Of a DNA stretch of 36,553 bases, positions 4,427 through 31,225 are shown one piece after another. The notes under the pieces are model-generated. The model had not been told where the DNA came from. It saw only the letters and a list, made by a program, of their open reading frames with translations, and did no database searches. The translations under genes were made by a program, and so were the position numbers. The DNA lies in NCBI GenBank assembly GCA_945861625.1, contig CAMAVI010000030.1, positions 1 to 36,553 of the forward strand, given 5' to 3'. Positions within the stretch are counted from its first letter, which is position 1. Each line of letters starts with the position of its first letter. The DNA is from Candidatus Sulfopaludibacter sp. SbA3 (GTDB taxonomy: Bacteria > Acidobacteriota > Terriglobia > Bryobacterales > Bryobacteraceae).

Positions 4427-4455
4427 GTATAACGTACTACGGCCGCGCGGCCCAA
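4427..4455 (-). promoter_or_regulatory. promoter candidate for the lipoprotein gene, with internal palindrome
   Basis: On the minus strand TTGGGC (4455-4450) and TTATAC (4432-4427) are separated by 17 bp. The perfect 12-bp palindrome GGCCGCGCGGCC at 4441-4452 overlaps the -35 box and spacer, where a bound protein would block transcription. It also lies just upstream of the lipoprotein start at 4405. The palindrome is GC-rich, so it could equally be a chance structure. Confidence 0.45.
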
Positions 4456-4471
4456 CTTATTTCACGGCGTT

Positions 4472-6619
4472 CTATTTCACCACCTTGACCGTCACCGTGT
4501 TGGAGTATGCCGAAACGTTCATCGCGTTAAAGGCTTGCACCCGGTACAGATACGTGCCGCGGCTGGCCATGTTGGTAAACGTCTTGCTGTTGGCGCCGAC
4601 AGTTCCGGCGCGCGCGAAGTTCGTGGTTCCGGAAGGCGCGCGCTCGATGTAGAAGCCCGCCTCATTTCCAGAATTGTCCACCCATTGCAGAGTGACCGCT
4701 CCCCGGCCGGCTTTTCCGGTGAGCCCTGACGGCGCGTTGATCAGATTCGGATCGGGATTTACAGTGATCCCTACTTGCGCCGTCGCGGTCGCCCCGCGAT
4801 TATCTGTCACCGTCAGAACCGCGCTATAGGTCCCCGCATTCGCATACGTGTGCGATGGACTCGCGCCTGTGCCCGTCGAACCGTCCCCAAAATTCCAGCC
4901 ATACGAAGCGATCGAGCCGTCGGGATCGCTCGATCCAGCCGAACTGAATGTCACCGCGAGCGGCGCTGTTCCCGACAAGGGAGCCGCCGAAGCCGCAGCC
5001 ACCGGGGGCTGGTTCGGCGCGCCGGACGGCAGCACCAGCAGAGTGATGCTCTGCGCGGGCGAGGTGAAGTTGACGGCGTTGCCGCTATAGCCCAGATCGG
5101 CCAATCGCGTAATCGCATTAGAAGCGGCGAGTTGATACACCTGCGCCGCGCCGCTCCCCGCGAAGTTATTCAGAGCGACATTGACTGGCGTCGAGCCTGA
5201 CAAATACTTGCTGACGACCATCACGGTCAGTGCGCCATCGGCAGTACGTTGACCGGCGAACACCGCCACGTTGTCCGGGTTCGGCCCGGAAGCCGACACG
5301 CTCACGTCGCCAAACGCCGATTTATTGCCGTCGTAGTTGCGGTACATCTTGATCGCCTTGTACGTTGGCGTGGAGGCGTCCGGAGTGGTCCAGCGCGCCG
5401 CCAGATCCAGTCCCTCGCGGCCAAAGATGCCGAGAATATCGGCCTGCGTGGTGGCGCCGTTGATATGGTTTTCCGCGCCCCAATTGTATTCGGTGATGCC
5501 GATCGGCGTGCCCGGATAGTAGTAGTTGTTCGCCCATCCACGCAAGCGCGGAATCAGCATGACATTGTCATTGATCCAGGTCGGGTCGACGTAATTGGGG
5601 TCCCACAGAGAGCGCGTCGATTGATTCCTGCGCAACTGCATGGCGGTACTGGTGTCGGAACTGAATTCCCCGCTCTGCGGGTAATAGTGCACGGTGAACA
5701 CGTCGAGCAAGTGACGCCCATCGGCCCTCAACTGCCCCAGAAGCCAGGGAAGATAATCGGCGCCGCCGTGGCTGTTGCGATCCGGCAGAAAACTCCAGCC
5801 GTGAAGGCTGCCGTACTGCTGGTCATAGCCGCTGAGGAGATAGCCGCTCCAGCCCCACTCTTCCGGACCCACTATCTGCGCGTTGGGGTCCGTTCCGCGA
5901 ATTTGCGCGGCGTAGTCTTTGATCCGCGCCAGAACTTCGTCCATGCTGGCGCCGGTGGGATGCACGTCGCGATGCGTGGAGTGCCAGATGCTGTGTTCGT
6001 TATCCAGGACGCAGTAGCGCGGCGCGGAGGCGTCGGCCAGGCCCCACTGATTGACGATCGCCTGCACCCACTGCTGCTGAAAACCCGCCGTGTTGGCCAC
6101 ATTCGCGTCGTTCGGATCATTGCCCGTGATGGGTTGCCCGTTGGATTTGAGAATCCCGTTTCCGGCGTCCGGAAACCACTGCGCGTCGTTGCCGGTCTGC
6201 GCGCCGTACTTGGCCTGTGAAAAGCCGGAGAGCTTGGAGCGGTTCGCCCCCAGCTTGGCCACCCAGTCGAGCATGGGTATCGTGATCATGGCGCGGGCGC
6301 CGGCCGCCTGCGTCGTGGAAATGAACGTATGGCCGCGTTCACCGGCCACCGCCGAAGCCTCGCCTATGCTTTCGAAGTACCAATCCTGAGCTCGGTTGTC
6401 CGCGTTCAGTTGCCAGTTGTAGCGGCTGCTGTTGTTGCCTCCATAGCGATTGAGAGGCACATTCAGATCGGAAAGCTGCGCCGTGGTTCCGTAGGCGATT
6501 CCGTAGACGCGTGGATCGATCGCATGCCGGTTGGCGCTGGCATCCACTACGACCGACGCGGCTGGATTCTGCGCCAGGGCGGCGGCCGTGAACAGAAGCA
6601 ACCCGCTGATGCGACGCAT
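4472..6619 (-). CDS. Secreted glycoside hydrolase, GH44-type, with PKD and FN3 domains
   Basis: A 715-residue exported protein (signal peptide, cleavage near LAQ at residue 17). The catalytic part resembles GH44 endoglucanase/xyloglucanases: RYGGNNSSRYNW (about 58-69), a DNE motif followed by IWHSTHRD (acid/base candidate Glu208), and TEYNWG (nucleophile candidate Glu377). A C-terminal beta domain of the GH44 type follows to about 530. Then come a PKD domain (about 538-625, with a WNFGDGS core) and an FN3-like domain (about 630-712), both usual accessory modules in polysaccharide degraders. It starts 2 bp after the secreted Ig-repeat gene, so the two are probably one operon. The family is recognised by motif; substrate is not known. 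Confidence 0.85.
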   Translation of the reverse strand: MRRISGLLLFTAAALAQNPAASVVVDASANRHAIDPRVYGIAYGTTAQLSDLNVPLNRYGGNNSSRYNWQLNADNRAQDWYFESIGEASAVAGERGHTFISTTQAAGARAMITIPMLDWVAKLGANRSKLSGFSQAKYGAQTGNDAQWFPDAGNGILKSNGQPITGNDPNDANVANTAGFQQQWVQAIVNQWGLADASAPRYCVLDNEHSIWHSTHRDVHPTGASMDEVLARIKDYAAQIRGTDPNAQIVGPEEWGWSGYLLSGYDQQYGSLHGWSFLPDRNSHGGADYLPWLLGQLRADGRHLLDVFTVHYYPQSGEFSSDTSTAMQLRRNQSTRSLWDPNYVDPTWINDNVMLIPRLRGWANNYYYPGTPIGITEYNWGAENHINGATTQADILGIFGREGLDLAARWTTPDASTPTYKAIKMYRNYDGNKSAFGDVSVSASGPNPDNVAVFAGQRTADGALTVMVVSKYLSGSTPVNVALNNFAGSGAAQVYQLAASNAITRLADLGYSGNAVNFTSPAQSITLLVLPSGAPNQPPVAAASAAPLSGTAPLAVTFSSAGSSDPDGSIASYGWNFGDGSTGTGASPSHTYANAGTYSAVLTVTDNRGATATAQVGITVNPDPNLINAPSGLTGKAGRGAVTLQWVDNSGNEAGFYIERAPSGTTNFARAGTVGANSKTFTNMASRGTYLYRVQAFNAMNVSAYSNTVTVKVVK

Positions 6620-25594: not shown

Positions 25595-26040
25595 CTACGC
25601 CAGCAGTTCCAGGCTTGACTCCGCGCTTCCAGGCACGGTATCCAAGGAAATCGACCGGTCAAACGTCACCAAATTGCCCTTCCGCGATACCGCTAGAGCA
25701 AGCAGATACACGTCAGTCAATCGACTCGAGTTTGTGACTTTCGAGGGGCGGCAACGGGCTTCATCCAGGAGCGAGATGTCATCCGGCCAGAATTCATGGT
25801 TTGCTTTGGCACAAAGTATCCGCAGATGCGACATCACCTCGGCCGGAGTTGCGCGAACCGTCGGATAGCTCGCATGGCTCAACACGCGAATGCAGCCATT
25901 GATCGTAATCGGACAAGTTGCCCAACGTTGCCCCATCTTTGCCGACAATGCGCCGCCCGCCGGTGTGCACTCTCATGGTGAATGTGGCTGGGATCGAAGA
26001 GTGCAACCAGCACGTTCACGTCGAGCAGCGCAGTGCTCAT
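25595..26040 (-). pseudogene. Frameshifted VapC-type PIN toxin (module 2)
   Basis: Read from an ATG at 26040 (overlapping the antitoxin stop as ATGA), the frame gives a good PIN N-terminus (MSTALLDVNVLVALFDPSH, Asp7) and then hits TGA at 25881. The rest of the domain (QRWATCPITINGCIRVLS, RLTDVYLLALAV, LVTFDRSI) continues in another frame, from about 25975 down to 25595. The shift corresponds to loss of one base (or gain of two) in the GC-rich stretch near 25950-26000. The toxin is therefore not made as one chain unless the sequence is in error or ribosomes shift. Confidence 0.8.
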
Positions 26041-26267
26041 TCAGAATCACGCAGGCGGTTGACCACTGCGAGGTCGGCGCGCGCTCCCTTGCGGGCCGTT
26101 TCGAACAAAGGCACCCCGTTGCGTACTTTCGCAGGCCGACGGGAAGGACTAGACAGCCCTTGCCGGACCAAGTCCGAGATGACCTGCCCCGCCGTCAGCC
26201 CGCGCCGCGCCGCGATCTGTTTGGCCAAACTAAGAACGTCTTCATTCAGATCCAGCGTGGTGCGCAT
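26037..26267 (-). CDS. VapB-like antitoxin, ribbon-helix-helix (module 2)
   Basis: A 76-residue antitoxin. The ATG at 26267 is preferred over 26288 because MRTTLDLNEDVLSLAKQ begins a typical RHH strand-helix-helix. The C-terminal part (RNGVPLF, ARKGARADLAVVNRLRD) is a toxin-binding tail as seen in VapB relatives. It overlaps the broken vapC by 4 bases. It is 39 bp downstream of the lon 3' end on the same strand. With its toxin apparently broken, the antitoxin may persist as a remnant or act in trans. Confidence 0.8.
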   Translation of the reverse strand: MRTTLDLNEDVLSLAKQIAARRGLTAGQVISDLVRQGLSSPSRRPAKVRNGVPLFETARKGARADLAVVNRLRDSE

Positions 26268-26306
26268 GTCTACATCATCACACTCCACTAAACGTGATGC
26301 TTGATG

Positions 26307-27101
26307 TCACGCCGCCTTCGCCGGCGTCGCCGGTTTACTCGCGAATCCGGGCAGGATCGCCCGCAGCACGTCTTCCACGCGCTCGGCGAAGATAAATTCC
26401 ATCTCCTTGCGGACTTCTTCGGGCAGATCCCGCAGGTCTTTCTCATTGGCCTTCGGGAGAATCACGCGCTTGAGGCCCAGTCGCCGCGCGGCCAGCACCT
26501 TTTCCTTGACGCCGCCGATGGGCAGCACCAGGCCCGTCAACGTAACTTCACCTGTCATCGCGGTATCGCTGCGAGCAGGCCTACCCGAATACAGGGAAGC
26601 CAGCGCAGTGGTCATGGTCACGCCAGCCGACGGACCGTCTTTCGGAGTCGCCCCGGCCGGCACGTGAATGTGCAGGCCACTGTTGAGGAACAGCGCGGGG
26701 TCGATGCCAAGTTCGGCGGCGTGGCTCCACACATAGCTGCGTGCTGTCTTGGCGGATTCCTGCATCACCTCGCCCAGTTGTCCGGTAATGGTGACGTCTT
26801 TCCCGTTGGGCAGCAGCGTCGCTTCAATGTACAGAACGTCGCCGCCCGTTTCAGTCCAAGCCAGACCCGTGGCCACGCCCGCCGGCAATTCGCGGCGGCC
26901 CGTCTCAGGCGAATTTGTCTCCGGCCCCAGAAAGTCCGCAACCTGTTCCGGGATGATCTCGGCCGCTTCCGTGCGGCCCTCGGCCACGCGTAGCGCAATC
27001 TTCCGCATCAACCGCCCGATGGTCTGTTCGAGCTGCCGCACGCCCGCTTCTCGCGTGTATCGCGAAATCACCAGTTGGAGCGCAGGGTCGGTGATCCGCA
27101 T
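26307..27101 (-). CDS. lon: Lon protease, C-terminal fragment (AAA+ small subdomain and Ser-Lys protease domain)
   Basis: A 264-residue open frame that is the direct in-frame continuation of the upstream Lon N-terminal frame, after a TAA at 27131-27129. It starts at the first ATG (27101), 27 bases after that stop; the homologous sequence begins earlier, at 27128, so the ATG lies a few residues into the small subdomain. The protease domain is complete: catalytic Ser158 in PKDGPSAG and Lys201 in IGGVKEKVLAA (43 apart, as in E. coli Lon). A weak purine stretch (GAAGAACAG) precedes the ATG, so re-initiation is possible. It may be non-functional alone. Confidence 0.85.
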   Translation of the reverse strand: MRITDPALQLVISRYTREAGVRQLEQTIGRLMRKIALRVAEGRTEAAEIIPEQVADFLGPETNSPETGRRELPAGVATGLAWTETGGDVLYIEATLLPNGKDVTITGQLGEVMQESAKTARSYVWSHAAELGIDPALFLNSGLHIHVPAGATPKDGPSAGVTMTTALASLYSGRPARSDTAMTGEVTLTGLVLPIGGVKEKVLAARRLGLKRVILPKANEKDLRDLPEEVRKEMEFIFAERVEDVLRAILPGFASKPATPAKAA

Positions 27102-27128
27102 CTGTTCTTCGTTGAGTCCGGTTTGTTT

Positions 27129-28670
27129 TTACTGCCGCGGAATCAGGTAACGCCGCGCGATCTGCGCCTTCTCTTCTTCGCTGTAGCCGGAGAGCCGCAG
27201 AATCTCCATGCGATCCAGCAGAGGAGCGGGAATCGCGTCCAGCGTGTTGGCCGTGGTTACGAACATGACTTTCGAAAGATCGAAAGGCAGGTCCAGATAA
27301 TTATCACGAAACGTCTTGTTCTGCTCCGGGTCCAGGACCTCCAGCAGCGCCGACGCCGGGTCGCCCCGGAAATCGCGCCCCAGCTTATCGACTTCGTCCA
27401 GCATCAATACCGGATTCGCGAAACCAGCCCGCCGCATGGCCTGCAACAGGCGGCCCGGCAGCGCCCCGATATAAGTCCGCCGGTGGCCGCGCAGTTCCGC
27501 TTCGTCGTGCACGCCGCCCAGACTCATGCGCTCAAACTTGCGTCCAAGTGCCCTCGCGATGGATTGCCCCAGAGACGTTTTTCCGACGCCCGGCGCGCCC
27601 ACGAAGCACAGAATGGGAGCCTTGGCTTCCGGATTCAACTTCAACACTGCCAGGTGCTCCAGGATGCGTTCTTTCACCTTGCTGATGCCGAAGTGATCTT
27701 CATCCAGAACCTGGCGGGCCCGCGCCAGATCCAGTTGATCCTCGCTGCGCTTGTTCCAAGGCAGTTCAATCACATATTCGAGCCACGTGCGGATCACATT
27801 GTGCTCGGGCTGAGAAGCCGGCAGTTTCTCCAAGCGCCCCAATTCGCGCTCGGCTTCCTTGCGGACGTCTTCCGGCAGGTCCGCCGCGGCAAGTTTTTCG
27901 CGCAGCGATTCCACCTCGGCTTGCTCCGGATTCTTCTCGCCGAGTTCCTGCTCGATGGCCTTCTTCTGTTGCCGCAGGATGTATTCTTTCTGCTCGCGCG
28001 ACATTTCTCCGCTGGCTTCCGCTGTGATCTTGTTGCGCAACTCCATCACATCCAGCTCGTGGTCGAGCCAGCCGTGCAACAGGCGCAGCGCCTCCAGCCG
28101 CGTCGTGGCTTCCAGCAGCGATTGTTCCTTAATCCCTTCCAGCCCCATCAACGACGCGACCATGTAAGCCAGCCGCAGCGGATCTTCATGGGACGTAAAC
28201 ATACGCGCCAGTTGCTGTGGCGACGCTGCCCCCGGTTGGATCAGTCCCGCAAACTTGCTGCCCATCTCCACGATGGCGAGCGTAAGAGCTTCGGTTTCGC
28301 GGCTGGAATCATCCGGCGCGGGGAGCGGCGTGAAGCGCGCCGACAAAAACTTGTCATCGTCGACCTTGACGATGACAACGCGCTCCAGGCCGAGAACGAC
28401 AACGTCCAGATGATCTGGCTTGGGCCGTGCGGTCTTGCGAATCGCAGCCCGCGTGCCGATGGTGAACAGATCCGATGCGCCAGGGGCATCCACCGCCGGA
28501 TCCCTCTGCGCGACGATAATGATTTCTTTATCTTCGGTTGCGACGGCCGCTTCCACCGCCGCCATGGACGCCGGCCGGCCCACCGAGAGCGGCATCATCA
28601 ACCCCGGAAACAAAACCGAGTTTTTCAGCGCCAGTAACGGCAGCGTGCGAAGTTTTTCCATCTCGGCCAT
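27129..28670 (-). CDS. lon: Lon protease, N-terminal fragment (substrate domain and AAA+ large subdomain)
   Basis: ATP-dependent protease that degrades misfolded and regulatory proteins. This 513-residue frame has the LON substrate-binding domain (about 8-200), a coiled-coil region (about 215-290), Walker A GAPGVGKT (358-365) and Walker B LMLDEVDK (Asp425, Glu426). It ends with ARRYLIPRQ then TAA. At that site family members have Leu (RQLK-type), so one T to A change from TTA would account for the stop. With the continuation the protein would be about 787 residues, the usual size. AAGGAG lies 7-12 bases before the ATG. It follows clpB by 29 bp on the same strand. Confidence 0.9.
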   Translation of the reverse strand: MAEMEKLRTLPLLALKNSVLFPGLMMPLSVGRPASMAAVEAAVATEDKEIIIVAQRDPAVDAPGASDLFTIGTRAAIRKTARPKPDHLDVVVLGLERVVIVKVDDDKFLSARFTPLPAPDDSSRETEALTLAIVEMGSKFAGLIQPGAASPQQLARMFTSHEDPLRLAYMVASLMGLEGIKEQSLLEATTRLEALRLLHGWLDHELDVMELRNKITAEASGEMSREQKEYILRQQKKAIEQELGEKNPEQAEVESLREKLAAADLPEDVRKEAERELGRLEKLPASQPEHNVIRTWLEYVIELPWNKRSEDQLDLARARQVLDEDHFGISKVKERILEHLAVLKLNPEAKAPILCFVGAPGVGKTSLGQSIARALGRKFERMSLGGVHDEAELRGHRRTYIGALPGRLLQAMRRAGFANPVLMLDEVDKLGRDFRGDPASALLEVLDPEQNKTFRDNYLDLPFDLSKVMFVTTANTLDAIPAPLLDRMEILRLSGYSEEEKAQIARRYLIPRQ

Positions 28671-28699: not shown

Positions 28700-31225
28700 T
28701 TAAGATGCTGCGATGGGGGCCGCGGATTCGACATGAAACGTAAGTTCATGGTCCGCGCCCACCTCCACGCGAACTTTCTGGCCATCGCGAACTTCTCCGC
28801 CCACCAACTTCCGCGCCAGTGGTGTTTCGACTCCCTTTTGAATGGCTCGCTTCAGCGGACGCGCGCCGAAGCTGGGGTCGTAGCCCACGCTCGCCAGGTG
28901 TTCCACGGCGGCAGCGGAGAGTTCCAGTCCAATGTGCCTCTCCGCCAGCCGGGCCCGCAGAGTTTCCAATTGAATCACCACAATCTTCTTCAGTTGCTCG
29001 TCCGTCAAACTGTGGAAGTTGATGATCTCGTCGACACGGTTCAGGAACTCCGGCCGGAAAATATTCCGCAGTTCGCCTTGCGGCGCATTGGACGTCATGA
29101 TCACGATGGTGTTCTTGAAATCCACCGTGCCGCCCTGGCTGTCGGTCAGGCGTCCGTCATCGAGCACTTGCAACAGAACGTGGAAGACATCGTGATGCGC
29201 CTTCTCAATTTCATCCAGCAGCACCACCGAATACGGACGCCGCCGCACAGCTTCAGTCAACTGCCCGCCTTCTTCGTAGCCGATGTAGCCGGGAGGCGCG
29301 CCCACCAGCCGCGAGACCGTATGCTTTTCCTGGTACTCGGACATATCGATACGAATCATCGACCGCTCGTCGTCGAACAGGAATTGCGCCAGCGCGCGAG
29401 CCAGTTCCGTCTTCCCCACGCCCGTTGGCCCCAGGAACAGGAAGCTACCCACGGGTCGTTTCGGATCTTTCAATCCACCGCGAGCCCGCACGACAGCATC
29501 CGCGACCGCTTCCACGGCTTCGTCCTGACCCACAATGCGCTTATGTAATTCCTCGGGCAGATGCATCAGCTTCTGGATCTCGCCTTCGAGCAACTTGGAC
29601 AGCGGAACACCCGTCCAGCGGCTGACCACCTGTGCGATATCTTCTTCATCCACCTCCTCTTTGAGCAGCGCCGTGCTGTTCTTGCCGGCTTCCAACTGCT
29701 TTTCGAGCCCAGTCAACTTGCCATATTTCAATTCCGCGGCTTTGTTGAGGTCATAAGCGCGTTCGGCTTGCTCGATCTCGACCTTGGTCCGCTCGATTTG
29801 CTCGCGTATGTCGCGCTGCTTCTTGAGAGCTTCCTGATCGGCCTGCCACTGCGCGCGCAGGCTTGCCGAAGAAGTTTTCAATTCGGCCAATTCCCGTTCC
29901 AACTTGGCGAGCCTCTCCCGCGATGCTTTGTCCGTCTCTTTCTTCAGCGCCTCGCGTTCAATTTCAAGCTGCATCTGGCGGCGCGTGGTTTCGTCCAGCT
30001 CCGCCGGCATCGAATCGATTTCCGTGCGCGTCTTGGCACCGGCTTCGTCAATCAGGTCAATGGCCTTGTCCGGCAGGAAGCGGTCGGAAATATAGCGGTT
30101 GCTCAGCACCGCCGCCGCCACCATGGCCGAATCCTTGATGCGCACCCCATGGTGCAGCTCGTAGCGTTCGCGCAGCCCGCGCAAGATAGAAATCGTGTCT
30201 TCCACGGTCGGTTGATCCACCAACACCGTCTGGAAGCGCCGCTCCAGCGCTTTGTCTTTCTCGATGTTCTTGCGGTATTCGTCAAGCGTGGTCGCGCCGA
30301 TGCAATGCAGTTCGCCGCGGGCGAGCATGGGCTTCAGCAAGTTGCCGGCGTCCATCGACCCTTCGGCCTTCCCCGCCCCGACCACCGTGTGCAACTCGTC
30401 GATGAAGAGAATGATTTCGCCTTCCGCGGCCAGCACTTCCTTGAGCACGGCTTTTAAGCGCTCTTCGAACTCGCCACGGAATTTCGCACCCGCCACCAGC
30501 GCGCCCATATCGAGGGAAATGATTTTCCTGTTCTTCAGCCCCTCCGGCACGTCGCCGCGCACAATGCGGTGCGCGAGCCCTTCCACGATCGCGGTCTTGC
30601 CCACACCCGGCTCACCGATCAACACCGGATTGTTCTTGGTGCGCCGCGATAGAACCTGGACCACTCGCCGAATTTCCTCGTCGCGGCCAATCACGGGATC
30701 GAGTTTCCCCATCGCCGCAAGCTTCGTCAGATCGCTACCGTATTTCTCCAGCGACTCATAGGTCGCTTCGGGATTCGACGACGTCACGCGTTGCCCCTTT
30801 CGGATGGTTTGCAGTGTTTTGAGAATGCGCTCATGCGTCAGGCCCATCTCGCGCATGATTTTCTCACTCGTCGCGGCCAGCGCCACGTGTTCCACCGAGA
30901 CATACTCATCCTTAAACTGAGCGGCTTCTTTTTCAGCACGCTCCAGAAGATCCTGCAAGCGCTTGGTAACGTAAACCTGATCGACGCCCGGCGCCGAACC
31001 GGAAACCGTCGGCATCCGGTCCAACTCTTCGGTCAGCTTCTGAAAAACCTTCTTAAGATCTACCTCGGCCTTCCCCAGCAGCGACGGCATCAGGCCGCCC
31101 TCCTGGCCCAGCAGAGACATCAATAAATGTTCTACCTCAATTTGCTGCTGCCCTCGCTTGGAAGCCAATGCCTGGGCTGAGCGCATTCCTTCTTGCAGCT
31201 TTTCCGTAAATCGATTGAAGTCCAT
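28700..31225 (-). CDS. clpB: ATP-dependent disaggregase ClpB (Hsp100)
   Basis: Hexameric AAA+ unfoldase that extracts proteins from aggregates with DnaK. The 841 residues show an N domain (about 1-145), the first AAA+ (Walker A GEPGVGKT, 204-211; Walker B near 277), the coiled-coil M domain (about 395-525) that separates ClpB from ClpA/C, and the second AAA+ (Walker A GPTGVGKT, 599-606). The segment between TSN (711-713) and FRPEFLNR (723-730) is 9 residues; in E. coli ClpB it is 29, which accounts for much of the shorter length. It precedes lon by 29 bp and has its own promoter candidate. Confidence 0.96.

Follow-up and report, generated by a model that had tools for sequence, protein, structure and literature searches.

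An in-frame stop codon private to one genome interrupts a second, clpB-linked lon gene in Candidatus Sulfopaludibacter sp. SbA3

A complete lon frame carries a single in-frame stop codon

A lon gene in the stretch of DNA analysed here is interrupted by an in-frame TAA. On balance we take this to be a nonsense allele of recent origin, either fixed or segregating, in a second Lon gene that is linked to clpB and presumably dispensable. The stretch, referred to as the window (36,553 nucleotides), forms contig 30 of an assembly of 3.8 Mb and 174 contigs that is 94% complete. On its minus strand a lon frame extends from 28670 to 26307, listed as two open reading frames (ORFs), and in the aligned frame the TAA at 27131-27129 is the sole internal stop. 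The codons across the stop read CAG TAA AAA CAA ACC, after which the frame runs on to a TGA at 26309-26307. An ATG at 27101 lies in this same frame, 27 bases past the TAA. The features of the locus are as follows.

27129..28670, minus strand: N part of lon2 as encoded, 513 aa, with the substrate-binding domain and the large AAA+ subdomain, ending in TAA (ORF list, Pfam)
27129..27131, minus strand: in-frame TAA, private to the source genome in comparison with 20 genus orthologs (sequence, ortholog alignment)
26307..27128, minus strand: continuation of the lon2 frame, with the lid (by Pfam) and the S16 protease domain (ORF list, Pfam, alignment)
26307..27101, minus strand: putative restart ORF from the ATG at 27101, 264 aa (ORF list, start-site energy)
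28700..31225, minus strand: clpB, open frame of 841 aa directly upstream of lon2 (name from reading the sequence)
25595..26288, minus strand: VapBC-like pair downstream of lon2, with the PIN gene spread over two frames (alignment with the same-genus genome G002)

In the N part, Pfam reported LON_substr_bdg (PF02190, E 1.9e-36) and AAA (PF00004, E 1.5e-22), and in the C part Lon_lid (PF22667, E 5e-20) and Lon_C (PF05362, E 2.7e-80). The N part also contains GAPGVGKTS and DEVDK, which we take to be the Walker A and B motifs, and the C part contains KDGPSAG and KEKVLAA, presumably the catalytic motifs of the Ser-Lys S16 protease domain. Four domains spread over the two parts indicate a Lon frame that is complete apart from a single stop, rather than a chance arrangement. 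An earlier reading made from the sequence alone had described a lon interrupted at this TAA with the frame resuming behind it, and the ORFs, the codons and the Pfam matches all agree with that description.

A further lon, an open frame of 815 aa with no stop, is present on contig 39 of this genome. Over the stretch compared it is 45% identical to the Lon2 ortholog of genome G021, to which the interrupted gene is 84% identical. This makes the interrupted gene a second copy, linked to clpB, for which we coined the label Lon2. The closest named matches of its C part come from Terriglobia, Bryobacteraceae and other Acidobacteria assemblies. With a second lon whose frame is open, a broken lon2 poses no paradox.

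The sequence-only reading had placed the break at the exact junction of the large and small AAA+ subdomains. By Pfam this holds, as Lon_lid begins with the first residue of the C part, just past the stop; by solved structures it does not. The first or second residue of each of the chains 1qzm, 1x37, 4git and 5e7s is aligned to ortholog residue 495 (query residue 11), and the stop corresponds to ortholog residue 515, which puts it about 20 residues inside the small-subdomain chains. Two of these, 1qzm and 1x37 (94 and 124 residues), we take to be isolated small subdomains. Whether the cut sits exactly at the subdomain boundary depends on the definition used.

The stop is absent from relatives

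We examined a same-genus set of 22 genomes, in 20 of which the Lon2 locus spans the position of the stop codon; two of these orthologs (L014 and L023) are partial, and G002 covers the gene end only. All 20 orthologs are free of stops over the aligned range and all have Leu at the stop position, encoded by TTG in 14, CTC in three, CTT in two and CTG in one. The earlier suggestion that the missing residue is Leu was thus borne out, but its proposed route, a one-base change of TTA to TAA, finds no counterpart among these orthologs, none of which has a Leu codon one base away from TAA. The same reading had held that uninterrupted lon genes in close relatives, together with a lack of peptides from the C part, would speak against it; the first half of this is what the codon comparison found.

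Uninterrupted frames in these 20 genus orthologs, over the aligned range, are also what would be expected if the TAA were a wrong call in the contig and the organism's own lon2 were uninterrupted. We regard such a consensus or assembly error as a close rival, with rather less than an even chance of being correct. The codons themselves bear on it. TAA differs from TTG, the codon of 14 of the 20 orthologs, at two of three positions, and one miscalled base does not easily account for this. Such a call would need a prior Leu codon one base from TAA, which is uncommon: in 17 window ORFs it makes up 21 of 814 Leu codons. Near the stop, however, A in third position is enriched, to a level reached by 9 of 769 overlapping fifteen-codon windows.

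The search was extended to 200 genomes of the family, where rows with identity of at least 61%, counted by hand, were considered Lon2-like. By this count there are at least 124 rows in at least 123 of the 200 genomes. Among the 124 Lon2-like matches listed, stops were found in two, those of the source genome and of G162, and the other 122 had none. In the phylum search (396 genomes) the source genome was the only one with a stop among the matches listed, and the 80 Lon loci taken from the search with the C part showed no stop within the aligned range. No Lon split at the same point was seen in genus, family or phylum relatives among the matches listed.

G162 belongs to another genus, and its Lon2 (L144, G162:C254), which adjoins a clpB end, is interrupted by a TAA within the Walker A motif and, 16 codons on, by a TAG (1686-1688 and 1734-1736). 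With these two in-frame stops Lon2 is found broken elsewhere too, which speaks for a nonsense allele, but they could be errors as well. One genome of the same genus, G022, has no Lon2 match; it also has no close clpB match, and so the absence of Lon2 may be a gap in the bin. A Lon2 on CALQCC020000001.1 (L065), titled Bordetella parapertussis, is 73% identical to a genus ortholog, and the title looks mislabelled.

Single stops also occur in other conserved genes

To put the lon2 stop in proportion we looked at alaS, an essential gene. An internal stop was present in 1 of the 150 alaS matches listed (186 of the 200 family genomes matched), in genome G204, where the residues around the stop mismatch those of relatives, which suggests a local sequence error. 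Artefacts thus occur at about the frequency seen here, in keeping with an error in lon2. The rows listed give no difference between Lon2 (2/124) and alaS (1/150; Fisher p 0.59), and one stop in lon2 falls within this background. A clpB search was made in four genomes that were not a random pick, namely G022, G025 and G036, which have no Lon2-like match, and G002. The clpB-like genes of two of the four are broken, by a TAA in G025 (L153, G025:C534) and by a split over two frames in G036 (L157, G036:C35). Together with the alaS stop, these cases make a single unshared stop weak evidence of biology.

The quality of the window itself could be judged against G002, which is collinear with most of window positions 150-26591 at about 85% DNA identity. 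Its contig ends inside lon2, 94 codons from the gene end, with the stop site outside the overlap. Of 28 mechanically picked G002 ORFs, 21 match the window, 18 of them in one piece and without a stop in the window. Of the remaining three, one runs antisense over the VapBC/lon end and is found in two pieces, one meets a stop at residue four, and one, antisense to dnaK/dnaJ, contains six stops. Errors are not widespread in the window, and no other credible gene in the stretch shared with G002 is broken in the window alone, which argues against an error in lon2.

Two further points emerged from the comparison with G002. The PIN gene of the pair downstream of lon2, which we take to be VapBC, is matched in G002 in the same two frames, and a 653-base stretch at this pair is 95% identical to G002 as against about 85% around it, and may have been exchanged recently with the PIN gene already broken. 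A gene with GH44 and PKD domains (4428-6614, minus strand) lies in a 2.2-kb stretch missing from the otherwise collinear G002.

Neither half of lon2 shows significant decay

Comparison of the last 94 lon2 codons with G002 gave dN 0.025, dS 0.725 and w 0.034, next to w values of 0.031 for dnaK and 0.034 for alaS. Where the other genus members all agree, 0 of 131 columns had changed in the C part and 1 of 241 in the N part. Residues private to the source genome numbered 17 of 255 in the C part and 22 of 504 in the N part (Fisher p 0.22), and the C:N ratio of 1.53 compares with a pooled 0.97 in the 20 relatives (p 0.21). As neither excess is significant, these data do not support relaxed selection on the C part. 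The earlier statement that both parts are intact and without drift is upheld to this extent.

The absence of significant decay means that a stop that disables the gene must be young. A rough Poisson estimate, assuming neutrality after the stop, gave probabilities of 0.012 for a stop present over 10% of the branch and 0.11 for 5%, so that a disabling stop would date to roughly the last tenth of the source branch since G002. Strong constraint on the C part leaves the nonsense allele a narrow interval of time, and this counts against it, as do the presence of Lon2 in so many family genomes and the alaS stop. Intact halves are equally in line with an error. These data fit a genuine stop of recent date as well as an error or a C part that is still translated.

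Restart and read-through at the stop

If the C part were still translated, termination at 27129 could be followed by re-initiation at 27101, the 513-aa and 264-aa chains forming a working, nicked Lon. We consider this natural two-chain Lon unlikely. We know of no earlier case, and none was found in titles and abstract openings of Lon papers in the openly accessible literature. The ATG 27 bases past the stop is a feature in its favour, the more so as none of the 20 genus orthologs has Met at this site; by chance, however, a start codon in frame within 30 bases would not be rare. Its predicted anti-Shine-Dalgarno pairing is -3.2 kcal/mol. Among 10 other predicted window starts, four are weaker (holA, -0.7, and dnaJ, -1.7, among them) and six are stronger, including those of lon (-8.6) and clpB (-6.5). 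The restart site is thus unremarkable, of middling strength. According to excerpts of one source, termination-reinitiation in E. coli is documented for overlapping gene pairs, which lends the mechanism some precedent, and the dependence of bacterial reinitiation on a ribosome-binding motif varies (PMC6728339).

The conservation of both parts and the Pfam lid that starts right behind the stop would suit two chains, but such conservation is equally expected with a young stop or an error, and by the solved chains a product starting at 27101 would cost the small subdomain about 9 residues beyond the 20 or so already cut off. None of the 20 genus orthologs, and no other relative among the matches listed, is split at this point. 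The RNA offers nothing in favour of two chains either, as shuffled sequences fold at least as well as the 141-nt stretch that surrounds the stop (z +0.89), and the genome has its second lon with 815 codons open. A sigma-70 scan of 26900-27400 gave no internal promoter for the C part on the minus strand.

Read-through or recoding at the TAA, yielding some full-length Lon2, we hold to be very improbable. The exactly kept frame and the conservation of both parts would fit it, but the folding result gives no sign of a recoding structure and the stop occurs in none of the 20 genus orthologs. TAA terminates 6 of the 17 window ORFs tallied, the N part among the six; it is hence in use as a stop, and a reassigned code was rejected.

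A recent nonsense allele as the favoured reading

Of the three readings put forward from the sequence (nonsense mutation, error and split Lon), the first two stay viable and little speaks for the third. We favour the nonsense allele, and we infer that the stop is real, young, disabling and backed up by the other lon. A nonsense mutation would have arisen recently in lon2 and become fixed or be segregating. Translation would yield a fragment of 513 residues that keeps the substrate-binding and large AAA+ domains but lacks most of the lid and the whole protease domain, and Lon2 proteolysis would be lost or greatly reduced. The lon on contig 39 may cover the need.

The finding is ordinary in kind, and caution is due, given that an unshared in-frame stop in a single draft genome lies within the background set by alaS. 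A two-chain Lon, if true, would pair a 513-residue ATPase part with a 264-residue lid-protease part in a nicked hexamer, possibly uncoupling unfolding from proteolysis. Were the stop real and old, nature would have tested whether the AAA+ core requires a tethered lid.

Comparison with known systems

The product of the clpB-linked lon is presumably of the LonA type, with which it shares all four domains, in order and in one frame. The single uninterrupted chain of a LonA protease is absent from lon2 as encoded, where the TAA parts the large AAA+ subdomain (and, by the solved chains, the start of the small one) from the rest. The Lon2 of G162, which may be a young pseudogene, has in common with it in-frame stops in a conserved Lon2 beside a clpB end, but there the stops number two, one inside Walker A and one beyond it, where lon2 here has one, at the lid. 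The alaS of G204, a suspected sequence error, likewise has a stop in a conserved gene, but the residues around that stop mismatch, whereas lon2 here is clean on both sides. As for a young pseudogene, lon2 has the lesion and the second lon in the genome, and the relaxation of the rest of the gene is not significant.
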